Assembly (NCBI GenBank): GCA_002687935.1
Contig: NZBN01000003.1
Coordinates: forward strand, 1-52,842
Direction of reading: 5' to 3'
Source of the DNA: Methanobacteriota archaeon
GTDB taxonomy: Archaea > Undinarchaeota > Undinarchaeia > Undinarchaeales > Undinarchaeaceae
DNA length: 52,842 nt
Made by a program: the position numbers and the translations under genes. Positions 13,241-42,344 of the stretch are shown here, in pieces (within the stretch, counting starts at the first letter, position 1; each line of letters starts with the position of its first letter). Below the pieces are notes generated by a model. That model did not search any database. It was not told where the DNA came from and saw only the letters and a program-made list of their open reading frames with translations.

Positions 13241-14373
13241 AAAATATAGGAATTTTGGCGTACGCTACAAAATCAAAAGGGATAGGTGGAACTATCAAGG
13301 AGCTTCCGGAAGATTTTATGGTCCAGGAAATTCAAGAAGACAGAAGCACTTCCAGTTTTGAACCCTCAAAAGAACTGCCAAAATCTTCTGAAGAAGTCAA
13401 GGAATACACACATTTCACTTTAGTCAAGAGAGATTGGAATCAGGAACAGATTTTAAAACGAGTTGCCCGTCGGCTAGAGATATCAAGAAAACGTTTTTCG
13501 ACTTCAGGAACAAAAGACAAAAAAGCACTTACTGCCCAAAAAGTTTCTGCCTGGAAAATTTCTCCAAAAGAGCTCCTGAACGTCAGAATAAAAGACTGCG
13601 AACTGGGGGATTTTTCCTACTCTTCGGAAAAAATAGAACTCGGAGACCACTGGGGCAATCGTTTCACAGTAAAGCTTCTTGGAGCTTCGGGAAGTCCTGA
13701 AAAAACACTAAAAGAACTCGAAGAATTCGGAGGGATTCCAAATTTTTTCGGAGAACAGCGCTTTGGTCTGCGTCTTAACAATCATATTGTTGGAAAACAC
13801 ATACTGGAAGGTAATATAGAGTCTGCAGTCCACGAATTCCTTGCAGGAACTGGGGAAAGAGAATCAGAAGAAGGAAGGAAGGCCCGCGAAACTCTTGCAG
13901 AAAACTGGGGTGATTTTGGAAAAGCTCTGAAAGAATTTCCAGTCTATATGCGCTTTGAACGAGCTCTCCTCGACCATCTCAACATTCACCCAAATGATTA
14001 TGTCGGAGCTTTCAAAAAACTGTCAAAACAGACATACAAATTCTTCACTCACGCATATCAGAGCTACCTTTTCAACATAATTCTGAGCGAGCGCATCAAC
14101 AATGGCTCCAATCTAGATGGAAGTTCAAACATACTTGGCTATGAATCAGAACCAGATGAAGCTGAATCCACTCTTCTGGAAAAAGAAGGTCTGAATTTGA
14201 AAGATTTCAAAGTCAGTCAGTTCCCTGAGGCAAGCGTTCGTGGTGACATCCGAACTCATCTGGCAGAAATTGGAAATTTAAGCTGGGAAGATGAAAAAGA
14301 TATCAACCTTGGCTTTGACCTCAGGAAAGGGGCATACGCAACAATTCTTTTGAGGGAGGTTCAAAAGGCATAA
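13237..14373 (+). CDS. truD: tRNA pseudouridine(13) synthase TruD
   Basis: The enzyme converts U13 of tRNA to pseudouridine. The catalytic aspartate is D94 in FSTSGTKDKKALTAQ, and the family motif NFFGEQRFGLR follows. The TRUD insertion domain and the late AYQSYLFN motif are present. The length of 378 is within the archaeal range. It ends the tpiA-pgk-gap-pth2-truD operon. A Ser/Glu-rich insert near residues 35-55 follows the LPEDFMVQEI motif and looks lineage-specific. Confidence 0.93.
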   Translation: MKNIGILAYATKSKGIGGTIKELPEDFMVQEIQEDRSTSSFEPSKELPKSSEEVKEYTHFTLVKRDWNQEQILKRVARRLEISRKRFSTSGTKDKKALTAQKVSAWKISPKELLNVRIKDCELGDFSYSSEKIELGDHWGNRFTVKLLGASGSPEKTLKELEEFGGIPNFFGEQRFGLRLNNHIVGKHILEGNIESAVHEFLAGTGERESEEGRKARETLAENWGDFGKALKEFPVYMRFERALLDHLNIHPNDYVGAFKKLSKQTYKFFTHAYQSYLFNIILSERINNGSNLDGSSNILGYESEPDEAESTLLEKEGLNLKDFKVSQFPEASVRGDIRTHLAEIGNLSWEDEKDINLGFDLRKGAYATILLREVQKA

Positions 14374-22772: not shown

Positions 22773-23735
22773 TTAAAGTCTCCAGATTTTAATCGGGTCT
22801 TTCATCCAGAAGAACAAACCAATTGCGGCTATACAATAGTTAAACAAAAGAACAATTAATGAAAAGGCAACTGCACTTCCCGCACCAATTCCAAGAAGTC
22901 CAAACATCCCTATCAAAACAAGGTCTCGTGTTCCGATTCCTGATATCGAAATTGGTGCGAGTTCAGCAAGCATACTCACAGGCATTATCATAGCTATATA
23001 GAAATAGCTGATATCAATTCCCGCCGCAAGAGAAAGCAGGTAATATTGTATGAATACAAAGAACCAGGCAAGCATTGTCAGTGCGGATATTTTAAGCAAA
23101 AGAAGACGTTCCTTTCTTATTGCCCTTACTCCTTCATAGAATTCTTCAAAATTAGTTTTCAAAATTGCCTGATGTTTTTTCGGAATAATCTTGCGGAAAA
23201 CGGGTCTTAACATATTTCTTGTGACTCCTTCCTCTAAAACAAGGAAGACAACTATTCCAAATGCAATAAATACGGCTATAGCAGTTTTCGGAGTGCTAAA
23301 ACCGAGTGCAAATTCAGCAGTCATATAATATATTCCAATTATAGCCAGCAGAAAGATGAGTAGAGTATCAATTACTCTGTCTATAAAAACAGTTGCAAAA
23401 GCCTTACCTGTTCTGATTTTTCTGTTGTCAGCTGCATATATCGCCTTTATGATTTCCCCGAGTCTTCCTGGCGTTATAACTGCTGCAAAAAGTCCAATAA
23501 TAAATGCCTTCCATGCCTCAAAGAACTTGAAACCCGGTTTCTGTACGTCGACTCCAAGCTTCCACTTATAGGCTTTTATTCCAGAGCTTACAGAAGTCAG
23601 ACTAAGAGCAACAATAAAATAAAGTGGGTTGGTTTTCAGAAAAGCTTCAGTTATTACTGATACTCCTACTGAATTAACAATATAGGCAAAGAGCAGAAGC
23701 CCGACTACCGGAAGAAATCTCTTGGCTTTAAACAT
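22773..23735 (-). CDS. Flippase-like membrane protein (LPG synthase TM family)
   Basis: The polytopic protein (about 8 TM, about 320 residues) carries the family signatures ITPGRLGEIIKA and APISISGIGTRD, as in the PF03706/TIGR00374 group. The longer ORF start at 23783 lies inside the upstream gene. The ATG at 23735 (MFKAKRFLPVVG) overlaps the DUF2304 stop by 8 nt and is preferred. Family members are thought to move or handle polyprenyl-linked glycans. It is last in the DUF354-led operon. Confidence 0.82.
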   Translation of the reverse strand: MFKAKRFLPVVGLLLFAYIVNSVGVSVITEAFLKTNPLYFIVALSLTSVSSGIKAYKWKLGVDVQKPGFKFFEAWKAFIIGLFAAVITPGRLGEIIKAIYAADNRKIRTGKAFATVFIDRVIDTLLIFLLAIIGIYYMTAEFALGFSTPKTAIAVFIAFGIVVFLVLEEGVTRNMLRPVFRKIIPKKHQAILKTNFEEFYEGVRAIRKERLLLLKISALTMLAWFFVFIQYYLLSLAAGIDISYFYIAMIMPVSMLAELAPISISGIGTRDLVLIGMFGLLGIGAGSAVAFSLIVLLFNYCIAAIGLFFWMKDPIKIWRL

Positions 23736-24078
23736 TCTGTTTTCGACCTTTCTGCTCAAGCTCAAGGGCGACCTTTCTGACAAGATTTGTTATCTGTCTC
23801 TGGGTTTCCTGATTTCTTATGTAGACTTGGAAGACAAATCCGTAGACTCCGAGGAGACCCAGAACAAGAAGTGCATCAAGTCCTCTTCCGATTTTCAGCC
23901 AGCTAAGAACTGAGTCAAGAACAGTAGGGTAAAGTGAAACGAAAAATATAGCAAGAGCGACGATTCCCCAAGTAACAAAGTCACGGTCCTTAAACTTTCC
24001 CTGTCTGTAAAGTTTTACAGCATAATAGAACATAAGAAGCCCGAGGGCCAGTCCGAATGCCTGTATTCCAGCTATCAT
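23728..24078 (-). CDS. DUF2304 small membrane protein
   Basis: The protein has three hydrophobic helices and a charged C-terminal helix (RQITNLVRKVALELEQ) typical of DUF2304. This family usually sits next to a DPM-like GT2 gene, as here. The ORF can begin at the TTG at 24090, but the ATG at 24078 makes an ATGA overlap with the GT2 stop, the coupling used elsewhere in this operon, and gives 116 residues. It probably works with the GT2 enzyme at the membrane. Confidence 0.8.
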   Translation of the reverse strand: MIAGIQAFGLALGLLMFYYAVKLYRQGKFKDRDFVTWGIVALAIFFVSLYPTVLDSVLSWLKIGRGLDALLVLGLLGVYGFVFQVYIRNQETQRQITNLVRKVALELEQKGRKQNV

Positions 24079-24764
24079 TTTCTCAACCAAAGGCGCTTAA
24101 GGAAAATTCCATACATTATTTTTACTCCTTCGCGCACGTTTGTACCTTTTTTCTTACTACGTTCGTCATATAAAGCTTTTATCGGGACTTCCTCAATCTT
24201 CATCCCATAGCGTCCTAGTTCGTATACAATTTCTGAGGATACATCGTAGCGGTCACACACAATTGACAGAGCCTTGGCGGATTTCTTGTCAAATGCCCTC
24301 AGTCCGCTCTGCGAGTCCGTAATCTTTGTCCCGGCAAGGAAATTTGTAAATCCTGTCAGGAACCAGTTTCCAAATCTTGTAACTGGCGGCATCATTTCTA
24401 AATCTTCCTTTCTCAAAAACCTTGAACCAAGAACAGCATTTGCCCGTTTCTTCTTTATCGGCTCTATCAAATTTTCTATATCCTTCCCAACATGCTGAAG
24501 GTCAGCATCAAAAGTAACTATAATATCTGCCTTTTTCCGCAGGGCTGATTGTATCCCTGTAGCAAGTGTTGCTCCAAGTCCCCTGTTTATCACGTGCGTT
24601 GCAACAAATACACCCTCCTTCAGAGCAAATTCTTCAGTTTTGTCCGAAGAACCATCATTCACAACAATAACTTCCGCCTTTGGAAAACCCTTCTTCAGAC
24701 TTTGCAGACTTTGCCGTATTGTCTTCTCCTCATTGTAAGCAGGCATTACTATAACAACTTTCAT
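24075..24764 (-). CDS. GT2 glycosyltransferase, polyprenyl-phosphate type, soluble
   Basis: The 229-residue GT-A enzyme has VIVMPAYNEEKTIRQSL, VNDGSSDKT, TFDADLQHVGKD and an SGLRAF motif, with no TM helix. It resembles archaeal dolichyl-phosphate mannose/glucose synthases that rely on a partner membrane protein, here probably the DUF2304 protein encoded directly downstream with a 4-nt overlap. It overlaps the upstream epimerase gene by 4 nt. Confidence 0.87.
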   Translation of the reverse strand: MKVVIVMPAYNEEKTIRQSLQSLKKGFPKAEVIVVNDGSSDKTEEFALKEGVFVATHVINRGLGATLATGIQSALRKKADIIVTFDADLQHVGKDIENLIEPIKKKRANAVLGSRFLRKEDLEMMPPVTRFGNWFLTGFTNFLAGTKITDSQSGLRAFDKKSAKALSIVCDRYDVSSEIVYELGRYGMKIEEVPIKALYDERSKKKGTNVREGVKIMYGIFLKRLWLRK

Positions 24765-25639
24765 TTCAACATATCCTTTATTCCTTCTTCAATAGAATAT
24801 TCTGGTCTATATCCTATTTTCTCAGAAGCGCGGGCTATACGTGTCCAACTTCTCTGTATATCACCTTCTCTCTCACCGGTTCTTTCAATATTCAACTCTG
24901 TATTAAGAGCATTTTCAATCGCTGAAACAATATCATTTATGCTGGTCTCTTCCCCGGAAGCAATATTCAAAGTCATATTATTGCCTGGCTCAGTCTTAAT
25001 ACACAAAATACAGGCATTTAGGAGGTCCTTAATATACAAAAAGTCCCTTGTCTGCTCTCCACTTCCGTAAATTTCAATTTTATTTTCTGAATTAAATTCC
25101 TCGAGCATCTTTGATATTACTCCTTGTCCGCCTTTTCCATAGATATTAAAAATTCTCAAAATAAAAGAAGGTATAGAACTTTTTTCGCAAAGTTTCTCAG
25201 CGGCAAGTTTGGATTCCCCATAAGGGGATATCGGCATTGCTACTGTTTCCTCACTAATTGGAAAGTCCTTAGTATCTCCATAAACTGCTGCAGAGCTGAA
25301 GAATATAATTTTTTTCACTCCTTCCTTTTCAGCGGCCGCAATAACATTCCTTGTCCCAGAAACATTTATTTCCCTGTCTTCCTCAGGATTTTCAAGAGAT
25401 TTCTGCACAGAGCTCTGCGCCGCAAGATGAAAAACAAGTTCACAACCTCTTATCACTTCTCCCAAATCCTGAGGATTTCTGATATCTCCTTCAACTATCT
25501 CAGCTGAACTATTTTCCAGTCTTTCTTTATCTCCGTTTGAAAAATTATCAAAAACCACGACTTCATGCCCCTCATTTTCCAGAGCCCCGACTAAATAAGG
25601 TCCTATAAATCCCGCTCCTCCAGTTACAAGCACTTTCAT
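24761..25639 (-). CDS. NAD-dependent sugar epimerase/dehydratase
   Basis: This extended SDR has VTGGAGFIGPYLVGAL for NAD, VFDNFSNG, FHLAAQSSVQ, catalytic YxxxK in SPYGESKLA and the GSGEQTRDFLYIKD loop. The length of 292 is slightly short for a UDP-glucose 4-epimerase. It belongs to the GalE/WbpP-like group, with the exact substrate unknown. It is a paralogue of the SDR at 17878, sharing the GSGEQTRDF loop, but stands in a different operon. Both ends have ATGA overlaps. Confidence 0.87.
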   Translation of the reverse strand: MKVLVTGGAGFIGPYLVGALENEGHEVVVFDNFSNGDKERLENSSAEIVEGDIRNPQDLGEVIRGCELVFHLAAQSSVQKSLENPEEDREINVSGTRNVIAAAEKEGVKKIIFFSSAAVYGDTKDFPISEETVAMPISPYGESKLAAEKLCEKSSIPSFILRIFNIYGKGGQGVISKMLEEFNSENKIEIYGSGEQTRDFLYIKDLLNACILCIKTEPGNNMTLNIASGEETSINDIVSAIENALNTELNIERTGEREGDIQRSWTRIARASEKIGYRPEYSIEEGIKDMLK

Positions 25640-26523
25640 ATTACTAATGTTACTATTCCCAGCGCAATCTCAACAAGCCAGTAAATTGCTACCAACTGCC
25701 ACTCGCGCATTCCTTTTATGCGAAGTATGAGGTTTGTAAGTGATAAATAGCTTTTCTGAGGCACTAAAATACCATTTTCAACTCTGGTCGGAACAATACG
25801 TTTACTGGAAGCAATTCCCATTGTAATAAATTTGAGAAGCATATCAAAAAAATAAGGGATGGAGAGTATCATCAGCGGAAGCAATGGAGCTCCAAGCGCT
25901 GCCGAAGCCGCTAGAAAAGCACCAATTGGCAAAGTTCCAACATCTCCGGGAAAAACCTTTGCAGGATACTTATTGAAGAAGAGGAAGCCAAGGAGAGCAA
26001 AGGAGTAGGCAAAAAGCGCCGTCCTCAATTCAAAATGTCCTGTGTTCAAAGCCAGGAAAAAGAGTGCTATTGCACCCATTCCTGCTTCAAGCCCGTTGAA
26101 ACCGGCGAGCATATTTGTCCAGTTGGACAGAACAACTACAGCAACGACGACAGCAAGAACTTCATAGACCCCAAAACTCCAGAACAATATCAAAGGGAGC
26201 GCTGGAAGAGCCGTCAGACCAAGCTTCTGGTAGGGATTAAATCTGAAAATATCATCAAGAAGTCCAATGCTTGCAGATATCAGAAAAACAAGTGTCAGAG
26301 TCATATAAATTGATGAAGCTGTAAGAAGATACATTCCTAAAAGAACAGTACCAAGTGCAGCTGCTACAGGAATTCCTCCAAAATCAGCTCTCATTGGTCT
26401 TCCTTCTTTGTGAATGTCCTCTGAAACTCGTCCTATCCGTTTAAATCTTCGTATGAAAACTACTGTTAGAATTATTGAAAGTGCAAAAGTGGAAAAAACA
26501 GGGACTGCATCGAAGGGAAGCAT
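25636..26523 (-). CDS. GT4 family polyprenyl-P N-acetylhexosamine-1-P transferase
   Basis: The multi-TM enzyme of 295 residues is related to MraY/WecA and archaeal AglH. The Mg-binding region is GLLDDIFRFNPYQK. Further motifs are LAGFNGLEAGMGAI and KVFPGDVGTLPIGAFLAA, as in the family. It would start lipid-linked glycan assembly by moving a sugar-1-phosphate from a UDP-sugar to dolichyl phosphate. It follows the DUF354 gene with a 1-nt gap and is coupled to the epimerase gene by ATGA. Confidence 0.87.
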   Translation of the reverse strand: MLPFDAVPVFSTFALSIILTVVFIRRFKRIGRVSEDIHKEGRPMRADFGGIPVAAALGTVLLGMYLLTASSIYMTLTLVFLISASIGLLDDIFRFNPYQKLGLTALPALPLILFWSFGVYEVLAVVVAVVVLSNWTNMLAGFNGLEAGMGAIALFFLALNTGHFELRTALFAYSFALLGFLFFNKYPAKVFPGDVGTLPIGAFLAASAALGAPLLPLMILSIPYFFDMLLKFITMGIASSKRIVPTRVENGILVPQKSYLSLTNLILRIKGMREWQLVAIYWLVEIALGIVTLVI

Positions 26524-26524
26524 C

Positions 26525-27589
26525 TCAAATTGCAGTAGATCTTACAGTATTTGCTATGACCTCTGCCGGATCCTCCATCGAGCTTATCAATTTATCAGCA
26601 ATTTTCCGCTGCCTTCTCTTATGCTCACCGTTTCTTTGTATCAAATCTGAAGCCTGTTCAAGTAAATTATACTTCGTAGTTCTGGAAACTAGATGTTTTT
26701 CTATTACATAGTCTTCATAAAAGGTTCTCATAGGTCTGCAGGCAAGTGTAGGTGTTCCAAGAAGAGCTGATTCAAGTGTCATAGTTCCTCCGCCTCCAAT
26801 AAACAAGTCTGAGTGATAAATAAGGCTCTGGGCATCTACTACTTTATCAGGTACAAGTATCTTTTCTGCTTTAATTTTTCTTATTTCGTCTGCTTGCTCC
26901 TGGTATCTTGCCAGAACAACAATTTTGTGTTCAGGAAAGTTTCTAGACATCTCTGTTATCATAGGTTTAATCAATACTTTCTCTCCTCTTGTGCTATCAC
27001 TTAGATAGGAAGCATTTGTCTCGGAAGTTCTAAAAGTTATAATCTTCGTCTGCTCAAGCCCAAGTAGTCCGAGAACTTCCTCACTAGGTTTAAAATCTCT
27101 CAACCAGGCAACTGGGTCAAGAGCGTCATATTGAACCACTTTCTCGGCTGGCATTCCATACCTTGCCCATACCTCCTTTGGTATTAGCTTTGGAGCAACT
27201 ACTTTTTCAGAAAGTGGTACTGAGAGTCTTGACTGCGCTGAAGCCTCAGGTATGTCATTAATACAAACATGGGGTATTCCCAATCCAAAAGCGACTCTGG
27301 CAGCCTCAGGCGAGGAGAGGGAAAGAGCTACACTTGGCTCTTCTTTAGAAACAATGCTATTCATTTCACGCATTCTCTCTATGCTTGCCTCAAGTTTTCC
27401 ATCGAGGCTCGCTCCTCCGTGCTTTCCTACCACAAGTGCTTCTATGCTCTTTTCCTTCAGAAGCTCTGAAGTTTCCTTATATTCTCGTGTTGTAACGAAA
27501 ACTTCCTCTCCTTGTTTCTCAAGCATCGGTATCAGCTTCGAATAGAGCATAACCTGTTTTGGCGTAAGTAGGTCAATCCATACCTTCAT
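26525..27589 (-). CDS. DUF354 family GT-B-like protein
   Basis: The 354-residue protein matches DUF354 (PF04007), a GT-B-fold family near UDP-GlcNAc epimerases and glycosyltransferases. It starts KVWIDLLTPKQVMLYSKL, and the C-terminal half has LFIGGGGTMTLESALLGTP, typical of a nucleotide-sugar pocket. It has no TM. It is the first gene of a six-gene minus-strand glycan operon, with a clear TATA box and upstream 10-bp repeats. Confidence 0.85.
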   Translation of the reverse strand: MKVWIDLLTPKQVMLYSKLIPMLEKQGEEVFVTTREYKETSELLKEKSIEALVVGKHGGASLDGKLEASIERMREMNSIVSKEEPSVALSLSSPEAARVAFGLGIPHVCINDIPEASAQSRLSVPLSEKVVAPKLIPKEVWARYGMPAEKVVQYDALDPVAWLRDFKPSEEVLGLLGLEQTKIITFRTSETNASYLSDSTRGEKVLIKPMITEMSRNFPEHKIVVLARYQEQADEIRKIKAEKILVPDKVVDAQSLIYHSDLFIGGGGTMTLESALLGTPTLACRPMRTFYEDYVIEKHLVSRTTKYNLLEQASDLIQRNGEHKRRQRKIADKLISSMEDPAEVIANTVRSTAI

Positions 27590-27610: not shown

Positions 27611-27620
27611 TTATATATAG
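27611..27620 (-). promoter_or_regulatory. TATA box of the DUF354-led glycan operon
   Basis: CTATATATAA (minus-strand reading) is centred 26-27 nt upstream of the DUF354 ATG at 27589. The operator-like repeat lies immediately upstream of this box. Confidence 0.6.
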
Positions 27621-27627
27621 CTATCCT

Positions 27628-27662
27628 GTGAAACCGTTTCATACGTTTTCATACGTTTTCAC
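27628..27662 (-). promoter_or_regulatory. Operator-like repeat upstream of the glycan operon
   Basis: Read on the minus strand, GAAAACGTAT is repeated in tandem and followed by GAAACGG, a 10-bp period (one helical turn). The element is flanked by GTGAAA and TTTCAC, and TGAAAC-C-GTTTCA at 27629-27641 is a perfect dyad. The 17-bp core TATGAAAACGTATGAAA (27637-27653) recurs with one change at the start of the regulator gene (28643-28659). It sits just upstream of the TATA box, a typical archaeal activator position. Confidence 0.6.
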
Positions 27663-27694
27663 AACAGTATTTTTTATTAAAAAGACCAATTTCA

Positions 27695-28648
27695 TCAATT
27701 CATTTCCTTGATAAGTTCAAGAATATTAGTTTTCCCGGATTTTCTTTTACTAAGTATCCCCCTTTCAACGAGTTCAGCAACAAGCCGTGAAACCTTTGGT
27801 CTGGAGAAGCCAGTCATCTCATCAAGGTTTTGCTGTTTCATTTTTCCACCCTGTTTATCAATAAGTTCAACAATTCTTCTTTCATCTTCCTGAAGTATAT
27901 CATAAGGTATCTCACTCTGCTTCCTTCTTATGACTTCAGCTCCCCATAAACTTGTTATAAGGAAAATAATAAGCCCGCCAGCTATTAAACCCACGACAAA
28001 ACTACTTCTTCCACCTGTCTCAACAAGAGGAAGCTGTGTAAGTTTTGTCTGCTCAACTCCTCCCAAACTGTCCAGTTTTTTTCTTGCCTCTTCAGATACG
28101 TCTCCTACAATGACAATACGCCTTGCTCCGAGCTTTTCTATTGCCTGTTCAGCCGATTCTGATAGTTTCCCCCGTTCTGTCAGAAGAACAGGACTTCCAT
28201 AGTCTATAGCTATTCTTGCCGCTGGCATAATAGCTCCTTCTCGGTCTCCTTCTGCAATCACTACTGTTTCAGACTCTCCCCACAATGTAATAGCCACTCT
28301 AGCTGCAGTTCCATAACGATTCCAGTCCCAAATTCTTACAACACTGTAATTCATTGCTCTCAGACTTCTCTCAACACTTGCAGGAACTGCCTCAGTTCCA
28401 CCTATTATTACTGCTTCAGAATAGCCCTGCTGAACATAAGCCGAAAGTTCTGATACAATTGGCTGTGTAAATCCTTTTTTAGAAACACCAATTAATGGAA
28501 TTCCCTCTTTACTGGTGTAAGTCTGTGCCAGAAAAAAATCTACAGGATAGTCTTCTCCTGCAACTACTAAATCATAGGCTGAAACTGCCTGACTTGTCAG
28601 GAAAGCCGCAATCAAGGTAAAAACAATAAGTTTTACGGACCTTTTCAT
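27695..28648 (-). CDS. Membrane-spanning regulator: signal peptide, CWB2-like, TM, winged helix
   Basis: The 317-residue protein has a signal peptide (1-24, ending AVSAY). An exported region (25-212) resembles cell-wall-binding repeat 2, with repeats such as EAVIIGGTEAVPASVERSL and RIVIVGDVSEEARKKLDSL. One TM helix follows (about 219-240), then a cytoplasmic MarR/COG2512-like winged helix (about 253-317, with QQNLDEMTGFSRPKVSRLVA). This predicts a one-component sensor with its ligand site outside and DNA binding inside. Its start codon lies within a copy of the 17-bp repeat found at the next operon, so autoregulation is likely. The target genes are inferred. Confidence 0.85.
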   Translation of the reverse strand: MKRSVKLIVFTLIAAFLTSQAVSAYDLVVAGEDYPVDFFLAQTYTSKEGIPLIGVSKKGFTQPIVSELSAYVQQGYSEAVIIGGTEAVPASVERSLRAMNYSVVRIWDWNRYGTAARVAITLWGESETVVIAEGDREGAIMPAARIAIDYGSPVLLTERGKLSESAEQAIEKLGARRIVIVGDVSEEARKKLDSLGGVEQTKLTQLPLVETGGRSSFVVGLIAGGLIIFLITSLWGAEVIRRKQSEIPYDILQEDERRIVELIDKQGGKMKQQNLDEMTGFSRPKVSRLVAELVERGILSKRKSGKTNILELIKEMN

Positions 28649-28659
28649 ACGATTTCATA
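28643..28659 (-). promoter_or_regulatory. Operator-like repeat over the regulator start codon
   Basis: TATGAAATCGTATGAAA (minus strand) matches the glycan-operon element at 16 of 17 positions with the same 10-bp period. The second ATG is the start codon of the regulator. With the TATA box 26 nt upstream, this covers the transcription start, a repressor position. Confidence 0.55.
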
Positions 28660-28669
28660 GGTTAAAGGT

Positions 28670-28680
28670 CTATTTATGCC
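28670..28680 (-). promoter_or_regulatory. TATA box of the regulator gene
   Basis: GCATAAATAG (minus reading) is centred about 26-27 nt upstream of the ATG at 28648. It lies within the last codons and stop of the upstream GT4 gene, so the regulator can be transcribed apart from that gene. Confidence 0.5.
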
Positions 28681-29623
28681 CTCTGCCCCCTATAGCCCTC
28701 TGCATTGCCGCAGCCATCTGTCCTGGAAGTTCGGATTCAACAATTATACAATTCCTCCCTTTTGCAAGTTCTGGAAGACCCCCTACATTTGTAGCTACTG
28801 CGGGCAGTCCACAGGTAAGAGCCTCATCAAGAGCTCTACCATATCCCTCAGATCTGGATGGCATCACAAAAAGAGCCGACTCATTAAGATATTTTGGAAG
28901 GTGGTCGTGTGGCATCTCTCCTACAAAATGAACTTTATCACTTATTCCAAGTTCTTCTGCAAGATTTTTCAGAAGTTTCAAATAAGAGGGGTCAATAATT
29001 CTTCCAACTATTTTCAAATTGTAGGTTTTATTCTTTTTAGAAAACTCTGCGAAGGCGGCAAGAAGTATATCAACACCCTTTATGTGATGAACAGAGCCAA
29101 CAAAAATTACTTGTTTCTTCTTTTTAATTTTCCTTCCTGAAAAAGCCTTCCCAACATCCCTTTGTTTGATTTCTATCACATCTTCCGGAATTCCTGCCGT
29201 CAAAACAGCGTCCTTTATACTTTCACTGACTGCATAAACTCTATCCGCTCCTTGCAATGCCTTCTTTGTAAAATAACTGTGCGGTTTTCTTTTCAGATTT
29301 ATCAGAGCATCAGTCCCGTGGCAGGTTACAGTATATGGTATCTCAAACCACTTTTTTGCCAGATGAGCAATATAACCAAAAGTAGTTGCAAAATGAGCTG
29401 ATATACTTGTAATATATTTTCTCCGTCTCATTATATGATAAATAAGAGAAGGCCCATTAATTGCAAATCTATTTCGTCGTATAAGTATCCGGTCATCTAG
29501 TTCAATAGGAATTACACTAGTTCCAATCAGAAAAGTATTTCCTCCTAATTCCTCGAATTCTTCTCTTACAACGAGTTCTGTCCCCGCATATGGCGGAGGA
29601 TAGGGTCCAAGCACCGTTTTCAT
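28670..29623 (-). CDS. GT4 family glycosyltransferase (group 1)
   Basis: This soluble GT-B retaining glycosyltransferase has 317 residues. It shows KKKQVIFVGSVHHIKGVD at the start of the C-terminal domain and the family signature FVMPSRSEGYGRALDEAL, with the E-x7-E pair completed at NVGGLPEL. The short N-terminal domain begins TVLGPYPPPYAGTE. The sugar is unknown. A TATA-like AGATATAAGAG lies about 28 nt upstream. It is just upstream of the regulator and probably belongs to the same surface-glycan region. Confidence 0.87.
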   Translation of the reverse strand: MKTVLGPYPPPYAGTELVVREEFEELGGNTFLIGTSVIPIELDDRILIRRNRFAINGPSLIYHIMRRRKYITSISAHFATTFGYIAHLAKKWFEIPYTVTCHGTDALINLKRKPHSYFTKKALQGADRVYAVSESIKDAVLTAGIPEDVIEIKQRDVGKAFSGRKIKKKKQVIFVGSVHHIKGVDILLAAFAEFSKKNKTYNLKIVGRIIDPSYLKLLKNLAEELGISDKVHFVGEMPHDHLPKYLNESALFVMPSRSEGYGRALDEALTCGLPAVATNVGGLPELAKGRNCIIVESELPGQMAAAMQRAIGGRGHK

Positions 29624-29686: not shown

Positions 29687-30424
29687 ATGGAAATTTTAGA
29701 GAGAAGCGGAAATACAATAATTGCTCTGTTGAATATAGCGGACTTAAAGGACCATGAGCACATAAATGAGAATTATCTTGTTGAACTAACCCGGAAAATA
29801 AAGGAAGATAAAGAACTTAAAATCCCAGTGGTTGTTGATAAGCACTCAAATGTTGTTCTGGACGGTCACCATCGGTTCTACGCTCTTCAGCGCCTCGGCT
29901 GCAAGCGAATACCTGCATTCGTCGTTGATTACTACAATCCTGATATAAAACTGAACTGCTGGAATCATTATGTCAAGACAGAAGAGGAGCGGGAGGAAGT
30001 ATTCGATTGCCTAAAGACTCACGATTTCCTAACAAGCACAGTGGAAAATGAAAATGTAATGAAAACACTCCTTGAATCGGGACAGGCAATTCTCGGAATA
30101 GCTGTAAGGAATGGTGATAAGCACTTTTTTATTGTTCAGTCAGAAGACAAGGAAAAAACATTCGAGGACGCTCTTAATTGCATAAAAAAAGGACTTTCAA
30201 AGGAGCTCGACTACATTCCTGATACAGTATCTATTGAAGAGGCGATGAGTGAGCAGAAAGCATCCCTTGTAATGATAATTCCTAGTGTAGATAAAAGTGA
30301 TGTCGTAAAAAAGGCGGTTGAAGGACATCCATATCCCCCTAAAACAACACGACATAGTATGTCAAAGCAAGGTGAGTATCCTGTTCCTCTTAGAAATTTA
30401 ATGTCCGAAGAACAAAAAGATTAA
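29687..30424 (+). CDS. serK: SerK-like serine kinase (ParB/sulfiredoxin fold)
   Basis: The 245-residue protein has the ParB-like nucleotide-binding core VVLDGHHRFYALQRLGCKR (D59-G-H-H-R63). It ends with the YPPKTTRH motif (about 220-227) found in archaeal free-serine kinases such as Thermococcus SerK (TK0378). These use ADP to make O-phosphoserine for cysteine or serine metabolism. The partition-protein label often given to this fold does not fit, since no helix-turn-helix follows. It converges on AMP phosphorylase with a 4-nt overlap. The substrate is inferred from the family. Confidence 0.75.
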   Translation: MEILERSGNTIIALLNIADLKDHEHINENYLVELTRKIKEDKELKIPVVVDKHSNVVLDGHHRFYALQRLGCKRIPAFVVDYYNPDIKLNCWNHYVKTEEEREEVFDCLKTHDFLTSTVENENVMKTLLESGQAILGIAVRNGDKHFFIVQSEDKEKTFEDALNCIKKGLSKELDYIPDTVSIEEAMSEQKASLVMIIPSVDKSDVVKKAVEGHPYPPKTTRHSMSKQGEYPVPLRNLMSEEQKD

Positions 30425-32007: not shown

Positions 32008-34209
32008 TTAAGGGAAACCCCCGCCTCCAGGTAGAGTTATTGGACATCCATCTGTATCAACTACAGTTCCTGTCTGAGTATTTGGACAGTCATCGTTCAG
32101 GTCATTTACTCCATCTCCATCTGAGTCCGTCCAAAGATCACAGGCGTCACCAATTCCATCATCATCAGAATCATCCTGATTCGTATTTGATATTAGTACA
32201 CAATTATCTGTATCATCATTCACGTAATCTCCATCACTATCCCTTTCAGAAGCGCAGCATCCAAGGAAGCTTCCACTCTGCGCTGGATTACAATCTGGAG
32301 GAGAGTTCTGACACTGGTCAAGATCATCAAATATACTGTCTCCGTCACTATCTCTCTGGTATGCAGCACAGCCATTACTATCAACAGAGGAGCCTGCTAT
32401 TGTATTTGGACAGTCATCACCAACGTCGTCAACTCCGTCATTATCATCATCACTATCTTCTGTGGAATCCTTACATCCATCACCATCTCTGTCATACCAG
32501 CCACCAGACCAGCCGCTTTCTCCTGTTGGACAGTCGTCTATAGCATCCGGAATTCCGTCATTATCATCATCCAGATCTTCTGAGTCCTTACATCCATCAT
32601 TGTCGTGGTCTGAACCTGAAGAACTTCCATCAGGACACTGGTCAACATCATCATTCATTCCATCTCCATCAGTATCGCGCTGAGATGGGCTACATCCACA
32701 GGTGAGTGGGTTGCTTACACACCAAGTGAGTCCAGTTACACCATTTGTATTGGAGCAGTCATCTATAATATTCGGAACTCCGTCATTATCCTCATCTTCT
32801 AATTCAGCAAGAGCACATCCAAATATTTGGGAAAGAGCACTATTTTCTATAATATCATTAACATACTGCGCAGGTGTATTCGGACACATATCATCAACGT
32901 CGTCAACTCCGTCATTGTCATCGTCGGTGTCACAATCATCTCCTTGGCCGTCATTGTCGTGGTCCTCTTGGTTCGCGTTCGCAATATTCGGACAATTATC
33001 CACATCATTTGCTACTCCGTCTCCGTCATTGTCTATGAGTCCGTCACAGGCGTCACCAATATCATCGTTATCTGCATCAGCTTGATTACTATTCGCATTA
33101 TTTGGACAGTTATCCTGACCGTTATTCACGCCATCATCGTCAATATCTGGGTCACAGGCGTCTCCAAAACCATCTCCGTCCATATCTGCTTGATTTTCGT
33201 TATAATTATCTGGACAGTTGTCATTACTGTCAGATGTTCCATCATTATCACTATCTTCACATCCATCATCGGCGACATTAGTTCCTTCTACAGTTCCTGA
33301 GCAACTGTCAGTTGAATCCAAGACTCCGTCGCCATCATCATCATCGTCACAGGCGTCTCCAAGACCGTCACCGTCAGTGTCTGTCTGTGCGCTGTTTGAA
33401 ACTGCAGGACAGTTGTCATTACTGTCAGAAAGCCCATCTCCGTCACTATCCGTACAACCATCTTCCGAAACAGTTTTTCCTAATGTAGTATAGTCGCACT
33501 GGTCAGGCTCATTAAGAACTCCATCATTGTCAATATCTGGGTCGCAGGCGTCTCCTTTACCGTCTCCGTCATGATTTGTCTGATCTAGATTGTAATTAGA
33601 TGGACAATTATCATCTTGCCAATATATTCCGTCGTTATCTCCATCAGGGTCACAATAATTCATTGGATTTCTTACAACAATTGTCATTGATTCAGGAGTT
33701 TCCACTGTAACGCCGGTTCTCCGAATCTCCAATGCCGCAGGATCCTGCTCCTGATCGAATAATACAATTATTTCAACAGAATCTGTTAGTTCCCTAACAA
33801 AAATGTCCGAAGCCCACGGAACTCCATAAAGGACAGTAGCGAATTTGCTATTGTATTCTGTTATAAAGCCATTTACAGCCTCTTTCATAGCTGGCTTGTT
33901 GTAGTCCAGCCGCGTGAAAAGCTCACTTATCGTGTAAATATCCCTCGCTGGGTCGCAACTCTCTCCAAGTTCGTAGAGTGTGTAGCTTCTAATAGATTCT
34001 CTTACAAGATTATCATAAAATACACTCTTTCCCTCAAGCTCCTGCATTCCGCCGATTATAACTTCTTTAACGATGCCTTTTGCTTCTATTCCTGCCGCAT
34101 TCTTCTTTGCCATATATGTAACAGTCACTTCGGCGCTCAGAAGCAGAGCTATAAGGAAGAACTGGAGGAATATCAGCTGAGCTTTTCTGTTCTTCAGAAG
34201 ATTTATCAT
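32008..34209 (-). CDS. Pilin-like protein with thrombospondin type 3 Ca-binding repeats
   Basis: The 733-residue protein begins MINLLKNRKAQLIFLQFFL, a class III prepilin-like start (RKA|Q plus hydrophobic helix), followed by a pilin-like domain to about residue 185. From there to the end it is a rod of at least a dozen thrombospondin-3-type repeats, such as DTDGDGLGDACD and DNDGVDDVDDMCP. These are Asp-rich calcium-binding loops with paired cysteines. It ends in LPGGGGFP. It is last in the 36906-32008 operon and coupled by ATGA to the gene above. A stalk or adhesin role at the cell surface is inferred. Confidence 0.88.
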   Translation of the reverse strand: MINLLKNRKAQLIFLQFFLIALLLSAEVTVTYMAKKNAAGIEAKGIVKEVIIGGMQELEGKSVFYDNLVRESIRSYTLYELGESCDPARDIYTISELFTRLDYNKPAMKEAVNGFITEYNSKFATVLYGVPWASDIFVRELTDSVEIIVLFDQEQDPAALEIRRTGVTVETPESMTIVVRNPMNYCDPDGDNDGIYWQDDNCPSNYNLDQTNHDGDGKGDACDPDIDNDGVLNEPDQCDYTTLGKTVSEDGCTDSDGDGLSDSNDNCPAVSNSAQTDTDGDGLGDACDDDDDGDGVLDSTDSCSGTVEGTNVADDGCEDSDNDGTSDSNDNCPDNYNENQADMDGDGFGDACDPDIDDDGVNNGQDNCPNNANSNQADADNDDIGDACDGLIDNDGDGVANDVDNCPNIANANQEDHDNDGQGDDCDTDDDNDGVDDVDDMCPNTPAQYVNDIIENSALSQIFGCALAELEDEDNDGVPNIIDDCSNTNGVTGLTWCVSNPLTCGCSPSQRDTDGDGMNDDVDQCPDGSSSGSDHDNDGCKDSEDLDDDNDGIPDAIDDCPTGESGWSGGWYDRDGDGCKDSTEDSDDDNDGVDDVGDDCPNTIAGSSVDSNGCAAYQRDSDGDSIFDDLDQCQNSPPDCNPAQSGSFLGCCASERDSDGDYVNDDTDNCVLISNTNQDDSDDDGIGDACDLWTDSDGDGVNDLNDDCPNTQTGTVVDTDGCPITLPGGGGFP

Positions 34210-37865: not shown

Positions 37866-40800
37866 TCAGCCGAAGCCCCCTGCCACTCCGTCTCCGCCAA
37901 CAACATAACCATCTCCACTACCTCCAGATGTTCCACCACCTGGTGAGACTCCACCACCTCCAAGACCGCCACCACTTCCTGTTCCAAACACGGAACAAGA
38001 GTCAGCAGTAGTTTTTGGAGTGAATGTTCCACCTGAGCTTGAAGAACTGCCACTTCCTCCTCCTAGTCCGAAACCTCCACTAAAACCACCTGTATCTGCT
38101 CCTGTTATAGTTCCTCCTGAAGTTTCTGAAGAGTCACATATCGTATCTTCATCTCGAGCTGTAAATTGAACGCAATCATCACTAAACTTACTCTTACAGT
38201 ATCCTATATCACATCCTCCACAAGGTCCAGTCCCTATGGTCATCTTTCCATAATAGTATGTTGTGCTTGTTAGTGTGTCACCAGCGCATACTGTGTTGTT
38301 CGGACATGTGTAAGTGAAGTCCCCACAGTCTGCGTTAACATCATCGGCCCAATTTCCACTGTTGTCGCTGTTGCTCGGGCACTGTATTTCTGTCGGGCAG
38401 TTGTCAATATAATTTGAAAGATATACTCTGTCTCTTCTTCCAGAGTCAAATGTTCCTGCTGATCCTGCTTTCACACGCTTCATAAGCTTGTCTGTGTCAA
38501 TTTCTGTCTGCTCAGCGACTCCTGCGCAGTCTCCTATTATGTTGCCGCACTCTGCCGGAACTTTGTAGATTTCATCGGGAGTGTAGTCTTGCTTGAGGCA
38601 GGCAAGCCTGCGATTGTCTGAACAACTTGCGTCAGCTTTAGAGAATGTGGAGCCGATGTCTACTCCATCAGCCTTACCATAAGTTCCGCCTGTCCCTAAA
38701 GTTCCTGTCCACGAAGTATCTGAAAGCAACTGTTCACAAGCCTCACCAGAGTATCCTCCACTACTGTCAGTCCCTGTCCAGAATTCATTGTCTGAAATGT
38801 ATGTTCCGTCTTCGTCGTAGGAGAAAGTTCTGCTGGCTAGATATCCAACATTTGCTCCTCCATAATAATTTCCATTATTATTCCTACTGTCAGAGGAGGA
38901 TCTATCTTGCACTGTTCCTGCTATCCATCCACCAAATTCGTAGACTGCTCCGAGATTTTCTGTATAATCTGTCCATCCCCATACTCCGTTTGTGTACTCA
39001 CCATAGGATTCAAAGATCTCTTCTGCCTCATCATTTAATGCGCCGTCATAAGAATAGAAGCTATAGTAAGGATTCTTTGTAATTCCCCCTACTCCTCCGC
39101 GACCAAGTTTTTGAAGCATATAATATTGTTCACGCCCAAGCTCAGTAGTCCATATTGTTATGGAGTCTATCATTCCTTTGAAATGATTTGAACTTGTGGG
39201 GAGGGCTTTCATCGCTCCTATATACAAATCCTCATCATTTGTCGAAAGTGTTGCATCAATTCCAAAAGGTCTTGAGGAACTTGTATCTGTGGAGTATCTA
39301 TCAGGTTTGTAGTAGTCCCACTCCGAAGCGTCTGATACATAGAGTGTCATCAACTGAGGACTTACAACAAATGTGAAATAGTGCCATTTATCTGTGGAAA
39401 TATCAAAACTAGAAGTTACCGTTTTCGTTGTAGTAGTTCCCCCTACTTCTCCTGATGCATTTAATTGTAGTTCGTCATTTGAATTAATTGCCAATTCATA
39501 ATTTATTTCACGATTTCCCTGTGAGCTCTTTGACAGTATAACTCTATATCCTGATGAAGGCTCTTCAAGCCAGAACCACCCAGTTACCGTAATCGCAGTG
39601 CTGGATTCAATATTGTTACTGTCCGGAATCTGTACATATCCACTGCTTCCGTCGAGCGAAAGAACATCATCCTCTAGCCATTTATATGCTGTACCAAAAG
39701 TGTCTCTTAGTCCGCCGTAAGTTATACTCTCTCCATAAACATTCTTAGCAGTTTCGGCTCTAACTCTACCCTTTAAATCATTTTCAAGATCGTTTTCTTT
39801 GTAGCTCAGAGCTGCAATCCATCTTCCTTCAAGACCGAGTGAGGAACTCTCCGCCTCCTGCTGGCAGATATAATCTGCTGATTCTATTCCATCTTCAAGA
39901 TTAAGACCAACTTCAAGCCTGCACAGAGGCTTCGTCAAATCATTTTCATATGGCTGGGTTGCCAAAGTTTCAGGATCCGAATTCTCACAATAGCCGGAGC
40001 CTCCTGCCCCAATATTACACAAGTAATCTGTGGAGCAGTCGCTTTGTGATGTACAGACCTTCTTCACAAAATAACTTGTTTCACATGCACTCTTTGAAAG
40101 GCTATGGCAGGCCGCTGGACTTTCTGAAACAAGAACACAGTCACCGAAAGTTTCACAACTCTCGACAGATATTCTTTCACAGTCAGTTGATGTAGGTGTT
40201 CCTACATTTCCACTACCTAAATCTAGGTTACTTCCGGCTCCTGCTGCCGTTCCTCCTAATTCAGTTCCGATAACGAAGCCTGTCGGAGCTCCCTGGAATC
40301 CATCTCCTCCTGAGCCTAGACCGGTTCCCGGACTTTCATCTCCTCCTGTTCCTGGCCCATCTCCCTCAGGTAGAGCAGGAGCTTCTCCCTCTCCACCAGT
40401 TCCACCAGAACCCTTATTCTTACAGGAGGTGTAAGGTATAGGTACGCAGCTGTAAGAGTCTGATGAAATTTCACCACTTGTTCCTTCAGACAGAAAGAGT
40501 GCATTCAGACCTATACTAATCTCTGGCGTGCTTAGTTTATCTGGTATTTCAGAATAAGCAGGAGTATCCCATTCTTCCGCTTCCCTGAGGGCGACCTTGG
40601 GATTAGGGGAGCCTGGCGTTTTTGCCCCTTTTCTGAACTCACTACACGCGACATATTGCCGTCCGCAGTAGTCTAATGATTCTCCGTATGAAATTTCCGG
40701 AGTATCGAAGTAAACAACACTTTCCTCCCAGGATTCTGTAATAGGTCTCTCTGGAGCCTCCCCAGCGCGCTCGAATCCTTCTGGACACTCTACATTGGAG

Positions 40801-42344
40801 AATCCTCCACAGTTGCGCAGGCACATCCATTCAGGGTCGTTATCACCGCAAAGCGTTTTTTCCTTTCCATCTCCTGCATACCGTGTATAGTCTGGGCAAA
40901 CTACCATATCACTTCCACAATTTTCGTATCCATCTGCTCCTGCCGTCCTTACCCACTGACCGGCAAACTCACTATAATCTGGACATTCAATCATATCGCC
41001 ACCGCAATTATTGTAGCGGTCTTCTATATATTCACAAAGTGACTTTTCACTATCATCGGTAAAACTCTCACATCTTTCCTGACTCAGACCAAAGCAAGCA
41101 GCTTCGTTCTCAGGCTGGAGTCCATGACAGCCTACAATTGTTTCTGGAACATATTTTCCGCCAAGTTCTGTATCTCCTGGACAGAGGACTTTTCCGAGTC
41201 TGCAATAGAGATAAAGATCATTCTCAGGTCCTTTCAGCGCAGTCTTCTTCCAGCCACAGTATCCATTTCGTGGAGTAGATTGTCCTGACGTGGTTCTCAA
41301 CTCTCCACCTTTCCTCTCTCCCTGGTTCTCCCTTCCTGATGCGTCCCTTACCATTGAACTATAGTATGAATCTCCCTCAAAAGAATAGTGAAGGACCAAA
41401 TTCTCAAGATTTTTGCCATAAGCAGGAGAACTCATATTCATTCCCCGCCTTGCTGACGAAAGTCTGTCGTCTGCATTCATAATCTCATTTATTTCTTCTA
41501 TAGTGAGAGCGGTTTCCCAGATAGAAACTTCATCTATGTAACCGTCAAAAGGATTCGAGCCACTTCCAGCGTTCGTATTATCTCCTATCCAAATATCAGT
41601 TCCCTCTGAAAATAGGTAATTTTCTTCTGTACTTTTCGTTGCTTCAAGTTCCCCATTGATATAAAGTTTCAAATCAGTGCCGTTATAGCTTGCAGCTATA
41701 TGAGTTCTCCATCCTGCATTAAGGACTCCTAGTGCTTTAACTACCTGAACCTCTGAGTTAGAATTGCTGTGATCTTCTGCATAAATACTAAGAGCAACAT
41801 TTCCATTTACTGTATAAAGAATCCAGTGTCTCCTTCCGTCGTTCCAAAAGTACTTACTTATAATATCTCTGTTAGTGTTCCCCACATCTCCTGGCTGAAC
41901 CCAGACTGAAAGTGTCAATCCTTCCGTTATATCTTCTACACCAGAAACTTCAATCTGTCCTCCACTTCCGTCCAAATAATATTGGTTTTCATCAATTCCA
42001 CAACCCTGTCTATCTTTGTCGCACCACTCAACAGGATTTCCCATCAAAGGAACGCAGGATTTTCCCACATCACTTATCGGGTCAACTAAATAATCTGGAC
42101 AGACGATATTTTCAAACTCTACAAAACCGCCGGCGTACTTTACGGCGCCTTCAAGATCAATAGCCGCTAGACCTTCTGCGCCTTCCAACCCTGTTTGCGC
42201 AATCGCAAGCTCCGGCGCGGCGGAGCCTGTTGTCGCATACTTCACACCCGCTGTGAGTGCGAGCATACCACTCGTTATTATGATTATTGCTCCAATTGTC
42301 AACTGAGCCTTTCTATTAAGTTTCAATTTGCCACCACTGTACAC
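37866..42344 (-). CDS. Giant pilin-like protein with two LamG domains
   Basis: A protein of about 1,490 residues. The N-terminus KLNRKAQLTIGAIIIITSGM gives an RKA|Q prepilin-like site and helix. LamG domain 1 lies at about 110-290 (YYLDGSGGQIEVSG, FDGYIDEVSIWETALTIEE). A Cys-rich region follows (about 330-560) with degenerate repeats such as NCGGDMIECPDYSEFAG and NCGSDMVVCPDYTRYAG. LamG domain 2 is at about 890-1085. The tail of about 90 residues is Gly/Ser-rich. GTG at 42344 or TTG at 42326 could start it; the TTG overlaps the upstream stop as TTGA, like the ATGA junctions here. Probably a large adhesin carried by the pilus or membrane. Confidence 0.88.
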   Translation of the reverse strand: MYSGGKLKLNRKAQLTIGAIIIITSGMLALTAGVKYATTGSAAPELAIAQTGLEGAEGLAAIDLEGAVKYAGGFVEFENIVCPDYLVDPISDVGKSCVPLMGNPVEWCDKDRQGCGIDENQYYLDGSGGQIEVSGVEDITEGLTLSVWVQPGDVGNTNRDIISKYFWNDGRRHWILYTVNGNVALSIYAEDHSNSNSEVQVVKALGVLNAGWRTHIAASYNGTDLKLYINGELEATKSTEENYLFSEGTDIWIGDNTNAGSGSNPFDGYIDEVSIWETALTIEEINEIMNADDRLSSARRGMNMSSPAYGKNLENLVLHYSFEGDSYYSSMVRDASGRENQGERKGGELRTTSGQSTPRNGYCGWKKTALKGPENDLYLYCRLGKVLCPGDTELGGKYVPETIVGCHGLQPENEAACFGLSQERCESFTDDSEKSLCEYIEDRYNNCGGDMIECPDYSEFAGQWVRTAGADGYENCGSDMVVCPDYTRYAGDGKEKTLCGDNDPEWMCLRNCGGFSNVECPEGFERAGEAPERPITESWEESVVYFDTPEISYGESLDYCGRQYVACSEFRKGAKTPGSPNPKVALREAEEWDTPAYSEIPDKLSTPEISIGLNALFLSEGTSGEISSDSYSCVPIPYTSCKNKGSGGTGGEGEAPALPEGDGPGTGGDESPGTGLGSGGDGFQGAPTGFVIGTELGGTAAGAGSNLDLGSGNVGTPTSTDCERISVESCETFGDCVLVSESPAACHSLSKSACETSYFVKKVCTSQSDCSTDYLCNIGAGGSGYCENSDPETLATQPYENDLTKPLCRLEVGLNLEDGIESADYICQQEAESSSLGLEGRWIAALSYKENDLENDLKGRVRAETAKNVYGESITYGGLRDTFGTAYKWLEDDVLSLDGSSGYVQIPDSNNIESSTAITVTGWFWLEEPSSGYRVILSKSSQGNREINYELAINSNDELQLNASGEVGGTTTTKTVTSSFDISTDKWHYFTFVVSPQLMTLYVSDASEWDYYKPDRYSTDTSSSRPFGIDATLSTNDEDLYIGAMKALPTSSNHFKGMIDSITIWTTELGREQYYMLQKLGRGGVGGITKNPYYSFYSYDGALNDEAEEIFESYGEYTNGVWGWTDYTENLGAVYEFGGWIAGTVQDRSSSDSRNNNGNYYGGANVGYLASRTFSYDEDGTYISDNEFWTGTDSSGGYSGEACEQLLSDTSWTGTLGTGGTYGKADGVDIGSTFSKADASCSDNRRLACLKQDYTPDEIYKVPAECGNIIGDCAGVAEQTEIDTDKLMKRVKAGSAGTFDSGRRDRVYLSNYIDNCPTEIQCPSNSDNSGNWADDVNADCGDFTYTCPNNTVCAGDTLTSTTYYYGKMTIGTGPCGGCDIGYCKSKFSDDCVQFTARDEDTICDSSETSGGTITGADTGGFSGGFGLGGGSGSSSSSGGTFTPKTTADSCSVFGTGSGGGLGGGGVSPGGGTSGGSGDGYVVGGDGVAGGFG

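Follow-up and report, generated by a model that had tools for sequence, protein, structure and literature searches.

Regulators of the ToxR/CadC type are bacterial one-component proteins, in which an outer sensor is connected through a single transmembrane (TM) helix to an inner, N-terminal winged helix of the OmpR type, and which use tandem sites at promoters. In archaea, ArnR and ArnR1 are membrane-bound one-component activators of the Sulfolobus archaellum (PMC6396743, PMC4858521). ArnR begins with an N-terminal helix-turn-helix (HTH), continues with a HAMP-like and then a sensing domain, and ends in two TM helices at the C-terminus (PMC6396743). A different kind of surface contact is provided by the CWB2 module. 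Cell-wall anchoring in C. difficile requires three tandem CWB2 repeats as well as the PILL motif, and in experiments CWB2 is known as an anchor, not as a sensor (PMC4973711).

The control of the surface coat in archaea, especially in DPANN, is little known, and for few of the membrane-bound regulators in archaea is the target known. The window analysed here is a stretch of 52,842 nucleotides from an undinarchaeote, whose genome (G000) is a 667-kb draft with 86.6% completeness. One of its genes probably encodes a membrane-anchored one-component transcription regulator, which would be dedicated to one surface-glycan operon and would bind a putative operator. The linkage of the regulator to the glycan genes and the candidate operator itself are well supported by the sequence. 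The features of the locus are collected in Table 1.

Table 1. Features of the regulator locus and the glycan operon, with positions in the window
Feature	Position	Strand	Basis and remarks
Regulator gene, 317 aa	27695..28648	(-)	signal peptide, CWB2 region, one TM helix, DUF7343 winged helix
Signal peptide / N-terminal membrane segment, ~residues 1-24	28577..28648	(-)	AF2 model helix 3-18; cleavage site inferred
Predicted exported CWB2 region, residues 25-204, two modules	28037..28576	(-)	Pfam PF04122, Foldseek, motif table
Single TM helix, residues 214-243	27920..28009	(-)	AF2 model
Predicted cytoplasmic winged helix (DUF7343, MarR/ArsR-like), residues 250-317	27698..27901	(-)	Pfam, AF2 model, Foldseek
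Putative operator copy TATGAAATCGTATGAAA over the regulator's own ATG (28648)	28643..28659	(-)	0 mismatches; also in G002, G005
TATA-like CATAAATAG, ~26 nt upstream of the regulator ATG	28670..28678	(-)	sequence; promoter role inferred
GT1-type glycosyltransferase directly upstream of the regulator	28670..29623	(-)	kept in 4/4 Undinarchaeota
Putative distal operator of the glycan operon, three TGAAA units	27637..27663	(-)	starts 27661, 27651, 27641, exact 10-bp spacing
Proximal palindrome TGAAACGGTTTCA, third direct unit and inverted arm	27629..27641	(-)	adjoins BRE/TATA; also in Hydrothermarchaeota
TATA box TATATATA of the glycan operon	27612..27619	(-)	sequence; ATG at 27589
DUF354 glycosyltransferase/epimerase-like, first operon gene	26525..27589	(-)	PF04007, E=2e-55
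GT4 family, MraY-like sugar-1-phosphate transferase	25636..26523	(-)	PF00953
NAD-dependent nucleotide-sugar epimerase/dehydratase	24761..25639	(-)	PF01370
GT2 polyprenyl-phosphate glycosyltransferase (PpgS/AglJ-like)	24075..24764	(-)	PF00535; NCBIfam NF058614, E=2.9e-40, below curated cut-off
DUF2304 small membrane protein	23728..24090	(-)	PF10066
Flippase-like membrane protein	22773..23783	(-)	PF03706 / TIGR00374, above cut-off

The probable regulator and the adjacent glycan operon

The regulator carries an HTH and a TM segment within one protein, without a receiver or kinase domain (Pfam, AlphaFold2 (AF2) model). The original prediction described a signal peptide, a CWB2-like exported region, one TM helix and a winged helix, an architecture borne out by Pfam, the AF2 model and Foldseek; its placement of the gene directly upstream of a six-gene glycan operon was confirmed by gene calls and Pfam. 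CW_binding_2 (PF04122) is matched in two stretches (E=1.8e-9, 38.5 bits against a gathering threshold of 24.9), and the DUF7343 (PF24034) winged helix is matched at residues 253-312 (E=8.4e-17, 61.2 bits against 27.6). The AF2 model, built from 40 aligned relatives, reaches a mean pLDDT of 90.8 and contains, besides the signal helix and the long membrane helix of Table 1, an alpha/beta region (residues 27-200) and the winged helix (254-312). The latter is related by Foldseek to regulators of the MarR/ArsR type. A PDB sequence search with residues ~20-206 led to Cwp6, Cwp8 and S-layer proteins of C. difficile, and Foldseek against the PDB matched the exported region to the Cwp8, Cwp6 and SlpA complexes (E ~1e-8 to 1e-6, probability 1.00, rmsd ~3 over ~190 columns). 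The basic RRK after the TM helix fits an inside C-terminus.

The ~180 exported residues form two alpha/beta modules in the AF2 model, compared with the three CWB2 repeats of the C. difficile anchors, and because three are required there, the regulator is not filed as a classical CWB2 anchor. A PILL-type motif is present as PVLL at P153 of module 2, with the proline invariant in 40 relatives, and module 1 has PLIG, a partial fit; the exported region also carries RIWDWNRYGTA. Five residues of the CWB2 core (G83, R105, R111, T114 and P153) are invariant across the 40 relatives, which come from several archaeal groups, and this invariance suggests a selected function. The CWB2 module would lie outside the membrane, where it would respond to a glycan or a surface polymer. 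By analogy with CWB2 biology, the polymer is the natural choice for the signal; no PSII-like polymer is known to us from the archaeal host.

No precedent for a sensing CWB2 domain was found in the literature searched. It is somewhat unlikely that the regulator controls the locus with an exported region that is mainly an anchor or a structural part, and receives its signal from elsewhere, e.g., through proteolytic release of the winged helix or through a partner protein. The core invariance argues against such a role, as does the absence in Hydrothermarchaeota of any conserved partner gene beside the regulator apart from the target; in its favor are the two modules instead of three, the persistence of the family in lineages without linked glycan genes, and the anchoring function established for CWB2 by experiment (PMC4973711).

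The glycan operon consists of six genes: DUF354, GT4, epimerase, GT2, DUF2304 and the flippase-like gene. The distance of ~26 nt from the centre of the TATA box to the ATG of DUF354 suggests a leaderless transcript. The stop codon of GT1, the gene upstream, overlaps with the TATA-like element of the regulator, so that the co-transcription of the regulator with GT1 is also possible. A ParB-N-like protein (weak Pfam match; window 29687-30424, plus strand) is found beside the GT1-regulator pair in 4/4 Undinarchaeota. Two large predicted surface proteins are encoded elsewhere in the window on the minus strand, one of 733 aa with thrombospondin type 3 repeats (32008-34209) and one of 1492 aa with laminin-G-like domains (37866-42344), and both are possible glycan carriers.

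The putative operator

A 17-bp element had been described over the start codon of the regulator and again upstream of the TATA box of the operon, with 16 of 17 positions identical, and this proved correct for the start copy and the nearest operon copy. Upstream of the glycan operon, on the minus strand, TATGAAAACGTATGAAA (27653-27637) has no mismatch to the motif, and TGTGAAAACGTATGAAA (27663-27647), located 10 bp from it and overlapping it in tandem, has one. Two elements can be added to the earlier description: TGAAA occurs a third time, at 27641, and its inverted form TTTCA is located at 27633. Together they form the palindrome TGAAACGGTTTCA beside the TATA box TATATATA. The regulator start has a single tandem copy.

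The exact motif TGAAANCGTNTGAAA occurs three times in the 667-kb genome, in all cases at the regulator/glycan locus, with no fourth copy in a genome-wide search, whereas 0.004 copies per window and 0.05 per genome are expected from a first-order Markov model of the window. It is therefore confined to this locus and not scattered at random density, the other outcome considered in the original prediction. Weak extra sites in the same genome are C5:7516 and C7:94632, with two mismatches each, and window position 13655, inside a gene. With up to three mismatches allowed, three matches are reached by 4 of 100 shuffles of the window, which makes the count mildly unusual and leaves some room for chance repeats or a functionless remnant of a short duplication. 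The probability of this explanation is practically negligible: a chance origin of the motif is ruled out by the three exact matches against 0.05 expected, by the conservation across genomes, with the operator block identical at 45/48 positions between the window genome and its sister species G002 and the preceding stretch at 20/34, and by the test across phyla with a position weight matrix (PWM) given below.

In the proposed mechanism, the winged helix would be located on the inner face of the membrane, ~ten residues from the TM helix, and would bind TGAAA-N-CGT-N units repeated every 10 bp. Such spacing would place the protomers on one face of the DNA, an arrangement that would suit a membrane-tethered winged helix. 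At the glycan operon the array ends in the palindrome touching BRE/TATA, where binding would lead to activation. The same TGAAA-N-CGT-N unit over the regulator's own start codon suggests autorepression. A position just upstream of BRE/TATA is typical of archaeal activators. EarA, an archaeal activator, likewise has its binding site upstream of the promoter, and a mutation of the BRE can substitute for EarA (PMC13286277). Given this precedent and the proximal arm directly upstream of BRE/TATA, activation of the glycan genes is likelier than repression.

The sign of this control would be reversed if the regulator bound its sites as a repressor of the glycan genes too. The proximal arm stops just upstream of BRE/TATA and leaves it uncovered in G000, G002, G003 and roughly a dozen loci of Hydrothermarchaeota, which speaks against repression. 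This alternative is judged unlikely, with three observations on its side: the unit over the regulator's own start occupies a repressor position, winged helices of the MarR/ArsR type matched here by Foldseek are often repressors, and in G005 the TGAAAACGT unit runs into the TATA box.

Conservation of the regulator, the motif and the predicted target

Naiadarchaeum is a member of Undinarchaeota, a DPANN phylum (PMC7414124). The gene order GT1, regulator, DUF354, GT4, (epimerase), GT2 is kept in 4/4 Undinarchaeota, and the regulator-DUF354-GT4-GT2 synteny in these four genomes covers three families. All four undinarchaeotes with an intact locus carry the motif at the orthologous place. Exact copies of TGAAANCGTNTGAAA number three in G002, all of them at the orthologous locus, three in Naiadarchaeum limnaeum (G003), two of them there and the third within a coding sequence unrelated to the locus, and one in G005, at the locus over the regulator start; the operon site of G005 is a near-match, reversed and weaker. 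The own-start site is found in three of the four and is absent in Naiadarchaeum. Between its tandem units and the TATA box, Naiadarchaeum has a hairpin, TGAAGCCCTTTTGGGCTTCA, with none at that place in the window or in G002. A second target considered in the same genome (C39:1516-1540), with tandem TGAAA units at 10-bp spacing, is located inside the coding sequence of a short-chain dehydrogenase and was taken as chance. One genome, G001, was left out of the regulator scoring and rejected as an example of a regulator-less genome, its contig ending inside DUF354; in G004, DUF354 has no match and the regulator only a partial one.

Relatives of the regulator were found in Hydrothermarchaeota, Theionarchaea, Thermococcales, Methanofastidiosia and Thermoproteota. 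The regulator is present in 19 of the 23 Hydrothermarchaeota genomes examined, and in 14 of these 19, as well as in G027, it is directly followed by a gene for a nucleotide-sugar dehydrogenase, identified in two cases by NCBIfam (TIGR03026, score above cut-off) and in the remaining ones by the GxGYxG signature. The gap between the regulator and the dehydrogenase has two conserved islands. The distal island is a tandem TGGAA-NN-GTT-N-GRAA with 10-bp spacing, and the proximal one, GAAACCGTTTCAT-NN-GAAAGCTTAAAATA, merges into BRE/TATA and matches GAAACGGTTTCACAGGATAG of the window. The single exact copy of TGAAANCGTNTGAAA in the G027 genome is at the orthologous locus.

The conservation was measured with a PWM built from the Undinarchaeota sites alone and tested against dinucleotide shuffles of each gap. 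For the gaps downstream of regulators with a dehydrogenase neighbor (Hydrothermarchaeota and G027), the combined P was 1.9e-9 with one genome per genus; for four Hydrothermarchaeota without this neighbor it was 0.10, with G068 by itself at 0.008. The composite GAAAYSGTTTCAYNRGAWAG has one exact match each in G000, G002, G074, G075 and G076, always at the regulator-target gap. A search of 16 genomes (~27 Mb) with the derived distal pattern TGGAANNGTTNGRAANNGTT gave nine exact matches. Eight are located immediately after the regulator, and the remaining one, in G076, precedes a gene for a small membrane protein in the same composite arrangement. Both patterns were written after the sites had been seen, and thus show rarity elsewhere, while the PWM is the independent test. 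Possible further targets in Hydrothermarchaeota are this small membrane protein (L180:486, G076:C135) and a predicted secreted (signal-peptide) protein without Pfam match (L179:2233, G073:C252), both preceded by composite promoters like that of the dehydrogenase.

The motif might belong to another DNA-binding protein or be a special element of glycan promoters, with the regulator close to it by coincidence. This is very unlikely, since each genome has the motif almost nowhere else, since in three genomes it also covers the start of the regulator itself, and since it follows the regulator in several lineages despite a different target, the DUF354 operon or the nucleotide-sugar dehydrogenase. 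Some weight is lent to it by the status of the winged-helix binding as a prediction and by regulators that have the same recognition helix and occur without the motif. Such regulators include those of the Hydrothermarchaeota G028, G061 and G062, located in other gene contexts. The recognition helix reads GYSRPT in Thermococcales as against GFSRPK, and the latter is also present in some lineages without the motif. In G079, the dehydrogenase neighbor is present and the motif is absent. Among the relatives from Thermococcales, Theionarchaea, Methanofastidiosia and Thermoproteota the motif was not found, and scores were mostly at background. In some Thermoproteota (L131, L134, L137, L138, L140, L141, L051, L052) the reading frame of the regulator begins within a tRNA-like sequence or immediately behind it, and a gene for a zinc-ribbon protein comes next; the true start of the regulator is probably internal.

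The original prediction also expected the regulator next to DUF354/GT4 genes in related genomes and the motif beside its orthologues. The former holds in four Undinarchaeota, and the latter in these, in Hydrothermarchaeota with a dehydrogenase neighbor, G079 excepted, and in G027. The glycan-gene target stood in part, with surface-glycan genes in Undinarchaeota and the nucleotide-sugar dehydrogenase in Hydrothermarchaeota and G027, and with no linkage to glycan genes of the window's kind in the Thermococcales, Theionarchaea and Thermoproteota relatives.

Place among known systems

A wider reading, tentative and a little short of probable, is that the locus represents an as yet undescribed family of archaeal one-component regulators, conserved from Undinarchaeota to Hydrothermarchaeota, which would read the cell's own coat via CWB2 and act directly on the genes for coat glycans through an operator that faces the membrane and is phased at 10 bp, in a one-protein feedback loop. 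If true, a one-protein sensor would adjust the archaeal cell coat, with feedback between the surface and its synthesis. Sequence alone allows a joint prediction of the regulator, the target genes and the operator, and all three can be followed from phylum to phylum, which makes binding and sensing directly testable with small soluble domains. The phasing of the operator offers a concrete model for the assembly of a membrane-tethered DNA-binding protein on DNA. In the literature searched, with most subscription journals outside it, no description of a CWB2-winged-helix regulator and no paper on the function of DUF7343 (PF24034) were found, and for DUF7343 there is thus no known function to compare.

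The exported region resembles the CWB2 proteins of C. difficile (Cwp6, Cwp8, SlpA, Cwp66) in fold, Pfam score and PILL-type motif. It differs from them in having two modules rather than three, in carrying a TM helix and a DNA-binding domain on the same chain, and in the archaeal host. With ToxR/CadC, the regulator shares the one-component design, an outer sensor-type domain, the single TM helix, an inner winged helix and tandem sites near promoters. Its polarity is opposite, however, with a C-terminal DUF7343/MarR-like winged helix, which belongs to another winged-helix family, and its promoters are not bacterial.

The closest known system is that of the ArnR membrane regulators. Like ArnR and ArnR1 of Sulfolobus, the protein would be an archaeal membrane-bound one-component HTH regulator of genes for surface structures. 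Unlike ArnR, it combines a signal peptide and an exported CWB2 region with a single TM helix, has the winged helix at the C-terminus and is encoded next to glycan genes. The domain order, the number of TM helices and the targets differ, and it is filed as an archaeal membrane one-component regulator outside the ArnR and ToxR families.
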